Under the pieces are notes generated by a model. It worked only from the letters and a program-made list of their open reading frames with translations, did not search any database and was not told the origin of the DNA. From assembly GCF_000516515.1 (NCBI RefSeq), contig NZ_KI911784.1, forward strand, positions 4,192,633 through 4,256,632: a stretch of 64,000 bases of DNA, read 5' to 3'. Position numbers and translations under genes: made by a program. This DNA is from Chloroflexus sp. Y-396-1. Its GTDB lineage: Bacteria > Chloroflexota > Chloroflexia > Chloroflexales > Chloroflexaceae. Below, piece after piece: positions 4,614 to 43,493 of this stretch. The stretch's first letter is position 1. Each line of letters begins with the position of its first letter.

Positions 4614-6194
4614 GTGTCCGAGACTGAACCATCAGTGCCAAATCCCCGCCTGAGTCGTGATACGTGGTTGTTGATCGGTGCGCTTGCTTTGCTCGGGCTA
4701 GGAGTCGCACTTACCTTTTTCTTTTCGCCCGGCAGCAACATTAATGTGCCTTCACCGACGGGTTCTCCGTTGGCTCGTCCACCGACGCGGGGCGCTGCAT
4801 ATCCCGAAGCAACGATGCCGGCTGGCGCAGTAGTACCAACAACTCCGGCATACCCGGCGGCAACGACGCCAATGCCAACAATTGATGTGGCTCAAACTCA
4901 GACCAGTCTTGTGCTGGAAACCACAGCTCTGGCTGCGACTATGCAGGCCGAGGCTACGCAGACCGAAACCGCTGTCCCGGCGTATCCAGTACCAGAAGGC
5001 ACGCCACCGACACCGCCAACGATTATTCCAACCGCAACTCTGCCTCCACCAACGATCCCGTCACTGCCAACTGCGCCACCACCGCCAACACTCCCACCGC
5101 CCCCCACCCCAACGAGCGCCGATCTCATCATTGATGACAGCCCAACCAATCCGCCGCCGCCAACCGCGACTCCGTTGCCGACTTCGACACCCCTGCCAAC
5201 ACCGGTACCGGCGCTGGTATTACGTGGCAGCACGCGCTGGACGAGTGATCAGGGGCCAATCGTGCTCAACCGAGATGTACAACTGCCGCCCGGCAGCGAG
5301 TTGATCATTGAATCAGGCGTAGAGGTACGTCTGGCGCCGGGAGTCTCGATTTATGTTGATGGTGGTCGGTTAATTGCTCTCGGCCAACCTGGCCGTCCGG
5401 TACGTTTTATTGGTGCTACCGGCGCCCGCTGGAGTGGTATCTATGGCCGTCCCGGCGGTTTTGTTGCGCTTGAGCACACTGAAATTCGTGGTGGCGGCCT
5501 GGGTGGAACAGTACTGGTAAGTGAAGAAGGTGGACTGGTGGTACGTTTTAGCAGGATTACCGATAACGGTGGCGGAGTCCTGGTGGTCGATTCGCGACTC
5601 GAACTGGTGCAGAGCGAAATTGCCGGTAATGATGTGCCCTTTGGAGCTGCATTTGAGGCGGCGTACAGCCGTGGCAACAGCGTAATGCTCGTCGGGAACC
5701 GAATTGGCGGTAATCGTCTCAGTGCTGGTGCGCCGATGGTGCGGATCGCGAATCAGAATGCACGCGAAACCCTTAATCTCACAATAGAAGGGAATCTCTT
5801 CCGTGATGGTGGTGTGAACGTACAGCTCACAACTAACGGTATGTTACAGGGTACCTTAATCTGCAATGCCCTGATCGGAGGTGATTTGGGTTTGAGCCTA
5901 CGTAGTGAAACCGTACAGGTCAGGCCCGAAGGTGGTTTTCTGATGCCATTGCGGATCGAGCAAAATCTGTTTGAAGGCCACACGCCGGTGATTCGACCAA
6001 CGTACCTTACGTATGGGATCGGTCGCGGGGCTGCTAGTGAGATTGCACTTGATATGCGCAATAACTGGTGGGGGCACGCTTCTGGCCCATATGAACCTGA
6101 TGTTAATCCGCAGGGTATTGGTGATGCTGTGGGTAGTAATATCTCCTTTGCGCCCTGGTTGACGGGGCGACCAGCCTGTGTGCCAGCGCCGTAG
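4614..6194 (+). CDS. Membrane-anchored protein with Pro/Thr-rich linker and right-handed beta-helix domain
   Basis: 526 residues from GTG 4614, preceded by GCGGAGG. Residues about 18-42 form one hydrophobic segment (LLIGALALLGLG), so the rest is likely exported and anchored. Residues about 45-195 are extremely rich in Pro, Thr and Ala (PPPPTLPPPPTPT), a stalk or cell-wall-spanning linker. The C-terminal part (about 200-525) has repeated short strands with turns such as EIRGGGLGG, RITDNGGGV, EIAGNDV, NRIGGNRL and EGNLFRDGG, typical of pectate-lyase-like/NosD beta-helix domains. It may bind or cut a surface polysaccharide, but catalytic residues cannot be assigned. Substrate unknown. Confidence 0.8.
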   Translation: MSETEPSVPNPRLSRDTWLLIGALALLGLGVALTFFFSPGSNINVPSPTGSPLARPPTRGAAYPEATMPAGAVVPTTPAYPAATTPMPTIDVAQTQTSLVLETTALAATMQAEATQTETAVPAYPVPEGTPPTPPTIIPTATLPPPTIPSLPTAPPPPTLPPPPTPTSADLIIDDSPTNPPPPTATPLPTSTPLPTPVPALVLRGSTRWTSDQGPIVLNRDVQLPPGSELIIESGVEVRLAPGVSIYVDGGRLIALGQPGRPVRFIGATGARWSGIYGRPGGFVALEHTEIRGGGLGGTVLVSEEGGLVVRFSRITDNGGGVLVVDSRLELVQSEIAGNDVPFGAAFEAAYSRGNSVMLVGNRIGGNRLSAGAPMVRIANQNARETLNLTIEGNLFRDGGVNVQLTTNGMLQGTLICNALIGGDLGLSLRSETVQVRPEGGFLMPLRIEQNLFEGHTPVIRPTYLTYGIGRGAASEIALDMRNNWWGHASGPYEPDVNPQGIGDAVGSNISFAPWLTGRPACVPAP

Positions 6195-6311
6195 GATGGG
6201 GGGGATAGGTGATAGAAGTGAGTAGGGGGCCTGGGGAAGTGATCAGTTCCAACCGCAGCCTCCAACAAGGTGTGTTTGCGCACCCAGATTGGGTGTTCCA
6301 GCCGCGACTTT

Positions 6312-6560
6312 TACCACGCGGGTCGGCGGCCCGCGCACCCAGCGCAGCGTGCGTTGCGGTGCAATGGCGCGGCGCGTGATGCTTGTACTACGCGGGCCGG
6401 TGGCCCGCGCACCCAGCGCAGTGTGCGTTGCGGTGCAATGGCGCGTGATGCTTGCACTACGCGGGCCGGTGGCCCGCGCACCCTGTGCAGCGTGCGTTGC
6501 GGTGAAATAGCGTGTGATGCTCGTACTACGCGGGCCGGAGGCCCACGCACCTAGTGCTTA
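6312..6560. repeat. Tandem array of 69-bp units each containing a REP-like palindrome
   Basis: Units start at about 6312, 6386, 6455 and 6524. The second and third units are 69 bp; the first is 74 bp because of a small GGCGC duplication, and the fourth is cut short. Each begins TACNACGCGGG, carries the GCGGGCC/GGCCCGC palindrome with a GCACC tail, and continues with CGTGCGTTGCGGTG. Long frames reading through it are artefacts of the repeat. It ends just before the DsbA-like gene at 6576. Confidence 0.9.
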
Positions 6561-6575
6561 GATGAGGAGGTTTGC

Positions 6576-7340
6576 TTGATACGTTCATTCTTTTGGTTAT
6601 TTATCCTGCTAATTCTGGTGGCATGTACTTCATCAGTACCGACGACCGAATCGCCGTCGCCGTTACGCACTACAACTCCTTCTCCGTCAGCAGCGATCAT
6701 TGTTGAACCAACCAGTACGACAGCCTCAACGATCACGCCAACTTCTCCCGTTGCAGTAGCCGCAACTCCAACGCCAATACCGGCCGTAACCTATCGGGGA
6801 GCGCTGGTTGGTCGTGATGCGAATGGCGCCTTCACCCTCGGCGATCCGGCAGCGCCGCTTACCCTTATCGATTATTCAGACTTTCTCTGAACAGCGTGCC
6901 GCCGTCACGTGTTGACGGTCGAACCAATATTGATTGAACGTTACGTCGTTACCGGCAAGATTTTGTACATCTTCCGTCCGGTACTCAACCACGGCGTTGC
7001 TTCGCTCGTGACTACTGCGGCGGCGTTTTGTGCCGGCGAACAAGATGCTTTCTGGCCGATGCATGAATTACTCTTTGCACGGCAGAGTGAGGTGGCGGCA
7101 ACTCGCGACACCGATTTACCGAACCTAATGAGCAGGTACGCGGCTGAATTAGGCCTTACTGTCACGACGTTTACCACGTGTTTGGAAGGGGGAGCTACCC
7201 AGCAATTGGCAGAAAATCTCGACGCCGAGCAGCGACAGCGTGGTATTCGCGTGCAACCGGTTTTCGAGATAGGCGAGATTCGGCTGATCGGCTTGCAACC
7301 GTTTGAACGATTTGCCGAAATTATTGAACGGCAACCATAG
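6576..7340 (+). CDS. DsbA-like thioredoxin-fold lipoprotein with in-frame TGA at the first catalytic Cys (candidate selenoprotein or nonsense pseudogene)
   Basis: TTG start at 6576, 5 nt after GAGGAGG. The N-terminus is a lipoprotein signal ending LVAC, followed by a Ser/Thr/Pro linker and a thioredoxin domain (LGDPAAPLTLIDYSDF). The frame meets TGA at 6888-6890 and then stays open in the same frame to 7340 (TAC-RRHVLTVEP and onward). Aligned with the intact paralogue at 42741-43493 (DYE-CPFC-ARFV), the TGA falls exactly on the first Cys of CxxC (codon 105); the second Cys is kept (codon 108). Read through, the protein is 254 residues, against 250 for the paralogue. Nothing else is broken. 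Either TGA encodes selenocysteine (UTAC motif) or a mutation inactivated the gene; TGCCCA to TGAACA would need two adjacent changes. Confidence 0.7.
6902..6918 (+). promoter_or_regulatory. SECIS-like stem-loop just downstream of the in-frame TGA
   Basis: CCGTCA and TGACGG form a perfect 6-bp stem around the 5-base loop CGTGT. The stem begins 11 nt after the TGA, and 17 nt separate the TGA from the loop. There is a G among the first two loop bases. These values fit the usual description of bacterial SECIS elements (short stem, small apical loop with an early G, close to the UGA). Function is inferred; short hairpins also arise by chance. Confidence 0.4.
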
Positions 7341-7356
7341 CCTGCGTAGTGCAAGG

Positions 7357-8592
7357 TTATAGTTGACGTAATTGTGGTGCGTGCCATTCTACACTCAACA
7401 CCAGGAGCCATCCGATGAAGGCACTGCCAGCGACGACCATCGGCACATTGCCGACCAGCTCAGCAACACTTCCAGCCAACATCCCACCCAACGGACTCAC
7501 CCCCATAAGCGAGAGGGTAAATACACTCATCACCCGTCCGCGTAGATCATCGGGTACGATTAGTTGAATAAGGGTATTGGTAAGCGCCATGGTGGTAACG
7601 CCGGCCCAACCACACAGTCCAATCAGCAGTAGAGCAAGCGGTACAATTCGGGTTTGAGTAAAACTGATCAGGAGGGGTGCGTACAGCAGGGCTGCAACTG
7701 TTAAAAGTTTCCCACGCGGTGAGTTATCGCCGAGCTGAGCAAGGATGAGTGCGGCGAGCAGGGAACCACATCCACTAGAGGCCGACAACCAGCCCAAACC
7801 GGCAGCACCGATATGTAAAACATCGCGTGCAAAGACCGGTAAGAGCGGAATATGGACGAAATAGAAAAAACTTACTGCACCGGCGCGCAGTAAGAGGGCG
7901 CGGATATTAGGTTCATGGATAATGTAGTGTAGCCCTGCGCGCACTGTATTGCCGTGCCGTGCAGCGGTTGATCGCTGCGTGTCGAGGTGCATCAGCGATA
8001 GACTGGTCAACACCGCGCCAAAACTAAGCGCATTGAACAAAAAAGCCGGCCCTTCCCCAATCCAGGCCACGACAATCCCAGCAACCGCTGGTCCGATAGT
8101 ACGTGCACCGTTGAAGATGGAAGAGTTAAGTGCAATCGCATTTAACAAGTCTTCGCGTCCCACCATCTCGACGGTAAATGCCTGACGGGCCGGTGCATCA
8201 AACGCATTAACGATACCTAACAAAAGCGCAAGGATCAGAACATGGGTAATATGCACGGTACCACTGAGGGTCAGGCCAGCCAGCGTAGCCGCCAGCAGCA
8301 TTGCCGTAGATTGGGTAATCAGCAAAATCCGACGTTTGGGAAAGCGATCGGCAATCGTACCGGCAAAGAGGGAAAACAACAATACCGGCAACGAATTGGC
8401 TGCCGCCACCAATCCAAGGAGAAAGGGTGAATCGGTCAATCGCAGGACAAGCCAGCCCTGTGCTACGCTCTGCATCCATGTGCCGGTCAGCGAAATCAGT
8501 TGCCCATAGAAAAATAGGCGATAATTGCGGTGACGAAGTGCGCGAAACATCGCCGAACGGCGCATTGTCGCACGGGCTTGAATTGATCTCAT
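7357..8592 (-). CDS. Major facilitator superfamily efflux transporter
   Basis: 411 residues with about twelve hydrophobic segments. The start region RALRHRNYRLFFYGQLISLT and the loop ADRFPKRR between helices 2 and 3 match the MFS_3/enterobactin-exporter-like group, which mostly exports drugs or siderophores. The gene begins 2 bp after the end of the MarR gene, so the pair forms one operon in which the regulator probably controls the pump. Substrate unknown. Confidence 0.88.
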   Translation of the reverse strand: MRSIQARATMRRSAMFRALRHRNYRLFFYGQLISLTGTWMQSVAQGWLVLRLTDSPFLLGLVAAANSLPVLLFSLFAGTIADRFPKRRILLITQSTAMLLAATLAGLTLSGTVHITHVLILALLLGIVNAFDAPARQAFTVEMVGREDLLNAIALNSSIFNGARTIGPAVAGIVVAWIGEGPAFLFNALSFGAVLTSLSLMHLDTQRSTAARHGNTVRAGLHYIIHEPNIRALLLRAGAVSFFYFVHIPLLPVFARDVLHIGAAGLGWLSASSGCGSLLAALILAQLGDNSPRGKLLTVAALLYAPLLISFTQTRIVPLALLLIGLCGWAGVTTMALTNTLIQLIVPDDLRGRVMSVFTLSLMGVSPLGGMLAGSVAELVGNVPMVVAGSAFIGWLLVLSVEWHAPQLRQL

Positions 8593-9282: not shown

Positions 9283-9502
9283 ACTGCACTCCTCGTTACA
9301 AATTGCTGGATGTGTTTCCGTCCTTATGTGACACATTGTACCGCGTTTTGAGATCATCGGTAGCAGCAAAGAGGCTGGTTCGTTGTGGAGAGAGGGGTTT
9401 GAAACGAGTGGGGATGGCATGGCAATGACCAGAAGGGCGACTGCCCACCGATTTCCGCTCACGGAGGAGCCTGGATGGGGGATGGGGCGTAAGCCACGTA
9501 TT

Positions 9503-9770
9503 GCACGATGCGGGCCGAAGGCTTGCGCCCCCACGGGGTTGCACGATGCGGGCCGGAGGCTTGCGCCCCCACCGGGTCGCACGATGCGGGCCGGAGGCTG
9601 GCGCCCCCACCGGGTCGCACGATGCGGGCCGGAGGCTGGCGCCCCCACCGGGTCGCACGATGCGGGCCGGAGGCCCACGCCCCACGGAATTGCACGAGGC
9701 GGGCCGGAGGCCCACGCCCCACGGGATTGCACGATGCGGGCCGGCGGCCCGCGCCCCCACGGGGTTGCAC
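9503..9770. repeat. Tandem array of seven 37-38-bp GC-rich units
   Basis: Copies of GCACGATGCGGGCCGGAGGC begin at 9503, 9541, 9579, 9617, 9655, 9692 and 9729, with a partial copy at 9767. Each holds the GCGGGCC/GGCCCGC-type core. All six frames stay open through the array because the GC-rich unit lacks stops, which gives several false long frames. No gene is supported between 9283 and 10141. Confidence 0.92.
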
Positions 9771-9853
9771 GGTCGGGAGTCATCGGCAGTAGGTGCGCGA
9801 TGTTCGTCGGCGGCACTCCGCTAGTGTATTATTCGATCAGCGAAGAATCATAC

Positions 9854-42740: not shown

Positions 42741-43493
42741 CTACTGTCTAAGCAGTTGCCGGATCAGGCTGGCAAAGTTCTCGAATGGCAAGGCGCCACG
42801 CACAATTTGACCGTTGATAATGAAGTTGGGGGTTGAGTTGATACCTAGTCGCGTTGCTGTCTCGATCTCGGCGATAATCGTCGCTTCAGTCGTTGGATCG
42901 TCGAGGCAGGTCGTCAATTGATCGGTATCGATGCCTAACCCGCCAGCCAGTTCGATCAAGACAGCCCGATCACGGCGTGGGACACCGCCCCACTCGACAC
43001 CGTGGCTCTGGAAGAGCTGCTCGTACATCGGCCAGAACTGATTCTGCGCAGCCGCGCAGTGGGCAACACTGGCTGCTAGTACTGCCGAAGGGTGGATCGA
43101 TGTCAGCGGAAAGTCGCGAACCACCAGCCTGACGAGGCCGGTCTCGACGAATTCACGGATCAGGCGTGGCCGGGTTTCACTGACAAAGCGGGCACAGAAC
43201 GGGCATTCGTAGTCGGTGAATTCGATCATCAACACTGGAGCGTTCGGATCACCCAAAGCCCGCGGATCATTAGCGGTCAGATTGAGGAACTCGACCAGGT
43301 CAATCGGCGGCGAAGGCGTTACCGTCGGCCGGCGTAATTCATCTGGTACTGGCGGCACTGTCGGTAGACCCTGGAGGGTAAGTTGGGTCTGACGAAGTTC
43401 TACTGCTGAACGAGTTGGTACTGGTGGCGCAACACTGCCACAACCGGTAATCAGGAGGATGAGCACGATGGCAAAGTGTTTAATCAACTGCAT
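42741..43493 (-). CDS. DsbA-like thioredoxin-fold lipoprotein (intact CPFC)
   Basis: 250 residues from ATG 43493, which begins a clear lipoprotein signal (FAIVLILLITGCGS). A Pro-rich linker leads to a DsbA-type domain: RALGDPNAPVLMIEFTDYE, the CPFC active site, LVVRDFPLTSIHPSA, QNQFWPMYEQLFQ, and the cis-Pro region INSTPNFIINGQ. It would oxidise, reduce or isomerise disulfides of exported proteins on the outer face of the membrane. It is the paralogue used to interpret the TGA-interrupted gene at 6576-7340, with which it aligns without gaps around the active site. Confidence 0.92.
   Translation of the reverse strand: MQLIKHFAIVLILLITGCGSVAPPVPTRSAVELRQTQLTLQGLPTVPPVPDELRRPTVTPSPPIDLVEFLNLTANDPRALGDPNAPVLMIEFTDYECPFCARFVSETRPRLIREFVETGLVRLVVRDFPLTSIHPSAVLAASVAHCAAAQNQFWPMYEQLFQSHGVEWGGVPRRDRAVLIELAGGLGIDTDQLTTCLDDPTTEATIIAEIETATRLGINSTPNFIINGQIVRGALPFENFASLIRQLLRQ

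Follow-up and report, generated by a model that had tools for sequence, protein, structure and literature searches.

The window, the whole stretch of 64,000 nucleotides from Chloroflexus sp. Y-396-1 that was analysed, carries on its plus strand a reading frame (6576-7340) that is closed by TAG and has a sole internal stop codon, the TGA at codon 105 (6888-6890). The original prediction had described this single in-frame TGA together with an intact start, ribosome site and lipoprotein signal, and all of these can be read from the sequence (TTG, GAGGAGG and LVAC with Cys17). In the translation, the TGA takes the first active-site position as had been predicted, in the context YSDFL-U-TAC (U105-T-A-C108). 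The features of the locus are as follows:

6564-6570, plus strand: Shine-Dalgarno-like GAGGAGG, 5 nt upstream of the TTG start, read from the sequence
6576-7340, plus strand: candidate selenoprotein gene with TTG start, TGA codon 105 taken as selenocysteine and TAG stop; 254 aa
6576-6626, plus strand: predicted lipoprotein signal peptide, lipobox LVAC, lipidated Cys17 (codon 6624-6626), by motif only
6627-6788, plus strand: Pro/Thr/Ser-rich linker (residues 18-71), of low confidence, between lipid anchor and fold
6789-7337, plus strand: predicted thioredoxin-fold domain (residues 72-254), from pLDDT and a structural match to BdbD (3eu3)
6888-6890, plus strand: in-frame TGA (predicted Sec codon), residue 105, N-terminal to helix 106-124
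6897-6899, plus strand: putative resolving Cys, residue 108, second member of the pair in U-T-A-C
6902-6918, plus strand: predicted bacterial SECIS hairpin with a 6-bp stem and the loop CGUGU (6908-6912), by comparison between sequences

A standard gene caller would break the gene at the TGA, and reading the codon as Sec corrects this. Cys17 of the lipobox is also present in the orthologue from a second genome of the genus (G002). A scan of 6150-7500 for promoters and terminators gave no match. Two GC-rich intergenic tandem repeats, at 6308-6551 (69 bp x 3.5) and 9501-9771 (38 bp x 7.2), share the common core GCGGGCCGG.

Selenocysteine decoding in the genome

The host genome is a single contig of 4,890,986 bases whose near relatives are Chloroflexota. 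The original prediction had proposed a search for selA, selB, selC and selD, and all four were found, which makes the Sec-decoding trait complete: selA scores 563.3 bits, selB is over the cut-off with 318.3 bits for its main piece and 340.9 bits with the neighbouring piece (616-aa ORF), tRNA-Sec (selC) scores 70.8 bits and is called tRNA-SeC by ARAGORN, with a TCA anticodon, and selD scores 382.8 bits. All of them are located outside the window. The earlier statement that the window itself holds no Sec machinery stands for the RNA part, as an Rfam search of the whole window matched no family; the protein genes were located genome-wide. selD (L159, G000:C1:2451845-2452768, minus strand) has one in-frame TGA of its own in the context ACAG-U-AAKLGP, which is conserved in five genomes of the genus. 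The presence of selA, selB, tRNA-Sec and a TGA-bearing selD implies that Sec decoding is present in this genome and serves at least one further gene. With the window gene, Sec decoding in this genus of phototroph-type Chloroflexota would be in use outside SelD.

Across a sample of the taxonomic family, 34 of 41 genomes have a selA above the cut-off and 33 of 41 a tRNA-Sec above its own. Within the genus, the single-contig genome G001 has a tRNA-Sec of 70.9 bits (L090, G001:C1:4496440-4496532) but neither a match to selA, nor a selD above the cut-off, nor the TGA form of the lipoprotein gene; its tRNA-Sec looks like the remnant of a Sec trait that was lost. Two further members, the drafts G007 (99% completeness) and G004 (82%), have selA and tRNA-Sec but lack a selD match above the cut-off. 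As another possible user of Sec, formate dehydrogenase alpha (TIGR01591) was considered: none of the eight genus genomes has a match over the cut-off, and the matches listed in them have no internal stop. A molybdopterin oxidoreductase-like gene lies close to selA in the host genome (G000:C1:1027592-1029514, plus strand); it is below the cut-off of the formate dehydrogenase alpha model and has no internal stop. Similar matches lie near selA in G002, G003, G004, G005, G006 and G007.

The hairpin downstream of the TGA

The hairpin has the 6-bp stem and 5-base loop that had been described before, its stem (6902-6907 pairing with 6913-6918) begins 11 nt after the TGA, and the spacing from UGA to loop is 17 nt. 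Its stability is what chance would give (z -0.34; 63 of 200 shuffled sequences equal or exceed it), and the stability of the single hairpin was rejected as evidence; the weight of the hairpin rests on the comparison between species. Among 12 TGA sequences 71 of 72 cells are paired, five of the six pairs show double changes, and 25 cells carry a double change versus 8.5 +/- 2.4 after shuffling; 0 of 500 shuffles reached 25. RNAalifold recovered the same stem from these sequences unaided. With 25 TGA sequences, 142 of 150 cells are paired and 47 double-change cells are found versus 15.2 +/- 3.5 in shuffled alignments (0 of 500 as high), and a shift of the partner by 1-3 columns leaves 23-56% paired. 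In neither set did the number of double-change pairs or the number of pair types exceed the shuffles, as expected with six short columns. The loop positions G22 and U23 of the alignment are invariant (25 of 25); the outermost pair is absent in eight of the 25 sequences and one, L155, has a different loop. Left out of this alignment are L129 and L131, which duplicate the G002 gene and the window gene, L151, whose 40 nt equal those of L114, the second of the two copies in each of G278 and G316, L128, which is of another subfamily, and those TGA matches under the cut-off that were not retrieved.

Among 22 relatives with Cys, pairing in these columns drops to 50.8%, with 22 double-change cells versus 16.0 shuffled. 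The slid registers give 35.6-42.4%, slightly less than the true register, which is due in part to close relatives among the Cys members and to L149, in which the hairpin is preserved. These 22 sites were found by a motif pattern on the plus strand of the fetched loci, so that Cys loci in the opposite orientation fall outside the set.

The bacterial SECIS model in the legend of Fig. 2 of a 2026 review (PMC13188914) allows 3-9 nt for the apical loop and 4-16 bp for the stem, calls for G in the first two positions of the loop, with G or U often coming next, places the apical loop 16-37 nt from the UGA, and sets an MFE of at most -7.5 kcal/mol. The loop of 5 nt, the stem of 6 bp and the spacing of 17 nt found here lie within these limits, and CGUGU has G at position 2 followed by U. 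The 43 nt from the UGA (-10.4 kcal/mol) and the 23-nt core (-9.5 kcal/mol) are below the energy limit, whereas the bare 17-nt hairpin falls short of it with -6.9 kcal/mol.

A covariance model (R1) was built from the 25 SECIS sequences, with those of the window gene and G002 included. Over the eight genus genomes these two genes stand out with 53.2 and 50.6 bits, as matches by construction, and the next match has 25.2 bits. Seven of the weaker matches were inspected as candidates for further selenoproteins: one is without TGA at its start and none of the remaining ones lies in a convincing gene (L171 has 74 codons before and 64 after). As the model missed selD, some SECIS elements of the genome lie beyond its reach.

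These data bear on whether the UGA could be read by an ordinary tRNA, for example that for Trp, or be skipped, in either case without selenium. Bacteria do show low-level UGA readthrough, but the codon stands at the catalytic Cys and not at a Trp site, the element that covaries with the TGA is absent as a set from the Cys forms, and Sec genes are present, in the host as in all nine TGA-bearing genomes of the taxonomic family, which have selA and tRNA-Sec over their cut-offs. Such a readthrough is highly improbable, and decoding of the UGA as Sec is the preferred reading.

Conservation of the TGA codon

Among the eight genomes of the genus, G002 is the only other carrier of the orthologue. It is 72% identical and has kept the TGA; thus the comparison of codon 105 in relatives that had been proposed gave TGA and not TGC or TGT in the close orthologue. 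The neighbourhood is conserved as well: the upstream gene (4614-6194) at 80% and the downstream MFS-like gene (7357-8592) at 83-87%. The other six genomes have paralogues only, with at most 43% identity and without a stop. For the 149 codons 3' of the TGA, dN is 0.152 and dS 1.68 between the host and G002 (ratio 0.091; own Nei-Gojobori script), a rough estimate since dS is high; directly 5' of the TGA it is saturated. A stretch that is not translated would not show such a ratio. Residues 1-71 are under weaker constraint (dN/dS 0.34).

A scan of genome contigs with the two-sequence alignment of the host and G002 gave 19 loci. Ten of them (L111-L120) have the TGA at the same YSDF(L/M)-U-xxC site and eight (L110, L121-L127) have Cys there; the active-site stretch of L110 is also that of G012. 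The last, L128, has its TGA in a more distant DsbA-type protein. This second protein, from a Chloroflexi MAG and of a different subfamily, has its active-site TGA at L128:3031-3033 in the context YGDYQ-U-PSC. The comparison genomes are mostly MAGs; the recurrence of the same TGA in independent genomes argues against a sequencing error.

According to the original prediction, a double change could instead have turned the Cys codon into a stop and killed the gene. The Cys paralogues indeed have TGC or TGT at this site, and the genome has other DsbA-like copies. Against a pseudogene stand the TGA that is common to the syntenic orthologue and ten further loci, the low dN/dS after it, the covarying hairpin and the lack of any second lesion; the signs of decay that were to be looked for are not seen in the frame, which has no other stop. 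A dead gene is, in our view, extremely unlikely, and the frame is better read as a conserved gene with a Sec codon.

Fold, family and proposed function

The AlphaFold2 model, computed on a 13-row alignment, has a mean pLDDT of 86.0, with about 47-64 in the linker up to residue 70 and means of 89-99 for blocks of 10 residues from residue 71. In the model, residue 105 directly precedes helix 106-124, the position in which the nucleophile of a thioredoxin fold is usually found. With Foldseek and VIA-align, the model was grouped with BdbD, alpha-DsbA1 and other DsbA proteins, and a profile search of PDB sequences agrees; the fold is thus predicted to be DsbA/BdbD-like. BdbD of Bacillus subtilis (3eu3) aligns with Z 22.0 and an rmsd of 2.2 over 171 residues, alpha-DsbA1 of Wolbachia (3f4s) with Z 21.5 and 1.8 over 170 residues; both are 21-25% identical to the window protein and have Cys where it would have Sec. 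Cys152 and Cys202 are invariant (13 of 13 rows) and perhaps form a structural disulfide. The conserved Pro228, which we infer from the model to be a cis-Pro, is preceded by Gln or Arg in 41 of the 41 family rows with letters there (Gln in the window protein); in the five ordinary paralogues of the alignment, Thr precedes the equivalent Pro.

The model also speaks against two separate genes, a short lipoprotein that ends at 6890 and a GTG-started ORF of 143 aa (6909-7340), a split that we regard as extremely unlikely, since it would sever a single thioredoxin domain right at the active site although both parts belong to one fold in the model, its GTG is the near-invariant hairpin loop itself, and Cys orthologues such as L110, L142 and L154 have one open frame. 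Pseudogene, simple readthrough and split gene were all rejected on this evidence.

We consider it almost certain from the comparisons of sequences that the window gene encodes a selenoprotein in which UGA 105 is Sec in the active site of a redox protein anchored to the membrane, since many Chloroflexota genomes have preserved the UGA at one position of the active site, a covarying SECIS hairpin follows it at a fixed distance, and selA, selB, tRNA-Sec and selD are in the same genome. The possibility of Sec raised in the original prediction is thereby supported, and the refuting conditions it had set, where checked on the genome and its relatives, did not hold. Points against it are that the single hairpin is not unusually stable and in its bare form falls short of the energy limit, that some of the 25 TGA sequences deviate in the outermost pair or the loop, that the gene is found in two of the eight genus genomes, and that MAGs make up most of the genomes compared.

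The window protein, with the TGA translated as Cys, matches NCBIfam NF041057, the 'Rcas_1661 family thioredoxin-like (seleno)lipoprotein', over its whole length (residues 7-253 to profile positions 2-247) with 295.4 bits at a cut-off of 190. It has the lipobox (by motif only) and the UxxC of this family. In Pfam it matches PF13462 Thioredoxin_4 (79.7 bits); PF01323, the DSBA domain, gave no match at E up to 0.001. The original prediction had compared the gene with a paralogue at 42741-43493, which exists with CPFC as described and lies on the minus strand; a nearer Cys relative, with CTSC at the active site, is elsewhere in the genome (G000:C1:2469119-2469790). The window paralogue likewise has PF13462, a lipobox and the same fold family. 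It differs from the window gene in CPFC, an additional PF01323 match and STP before the loop Pro, and, unlike the window gene, is not over the NF041057 cut-off.

NF041057 is an already described selenoprotein family of which the window gene is a well-supported member, and the novelty is lower for that reason. The family is listed in the 2026 review as 'DsbG-like protein' with UxxC, predicted with high confidence (PMC13188914), and lists of 2005-2006 have DsbG-like and DsbA-like selenoproteins (PMC1088965, PMC1794560), one of them counting three selenoprotein families in Chloroflexi (PMC1794560). Other DsbA-like selenoproteins, 45 in 41 organisms in one survey (PMC5029168), share the UxxC on a DsbA-type fold and are of PF01323, from which the window protein differs in that PF13462 is its only Pfam match at E up to 0.001. 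Our literature search found no paper naming the window gene. The comparison provides the family with a clean covarying SECIS.

In a sample of 400 genomes of the phylum, 29 are over the NF041057 cut-off (below it, figures hold among the matches listed): 16 with a TGA-bearing match, 12 with an uninterrupted one, and G217 with tandem adjoining matches of both kinds. Two loci, L151 (G278:C13) and L153 (G316:C300), each have two neighbouring family copies, both with TGA. Among the matches listed are 23 genomes of the taxonomic family, 17 of which have a member over the cut-off. Nine of the 17 are the TGA-bearing genomes with selA and tRNA-Sec; eight have Cys forms only, three of them (G001, G012, G021) without selA. 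Over a tree of 26 Sec and 21 Cys rows, 47 in total, the Sec/Cys label needs six changes, at least five of which are forced by well-supported branches. The window gene falls into a mainly Sec clade of 11 rows (nine Sec, two Cys; support 99/99), separate from the Cys paralogue that occurs in its genus, and no difference excludes its membership in the family. The two Cys rows are G012 and G021, which belong to the same taxonomic family. In genus g11, G027 has TGC amid TGA-bearing relatives (G023, G024, G026) and has kept the letters of the hairpin, which points to a recent Sec/Cys exchange.

According to the mechanism that we propose, SelB bound to the hairpin would deliver Sec-tRNA to the UGA at codon 105, and after export the product would receive its lipid at Cys17 and stay attached to the outer face of the membrane. 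There, Sec105 and Cys108 (UxxC), carried by the DsbA/BdbD-like fold, would form a redox pair of the selenenylsulfide/dithiol type that takes part in disulfide exchange with exported proteins. The modelled fold agrees with a role as disulfide oxidase or isomerase. A VKOR homologue (83.9 bits) is encoded in the same genome, and nothing links it to the selenoprotein.

It is tempting, if rather speculative, to see in the NF041057 lipoproteins a distinct extracytoplasmic line of Se-dependent thiol redox proteins, with UxxC and an unusual Gln or Arg before the loop Pro, one type of SECIS with a near-invariant CGUG loop, Sec and Cys swapped several times in step with gain and loss of Sec decoding, and a chemistry unlike that of DsbA oxidases. 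Such a line could serve, for example, as a reductase or as a peroxide/selenenylsulfide relay outside the membrane. Closely related pairs of a Sec and a Cys orthologue, with and without selA, lend themselves to a natural comparison of the value of selenium for an extracytoplasmic thiol protein.
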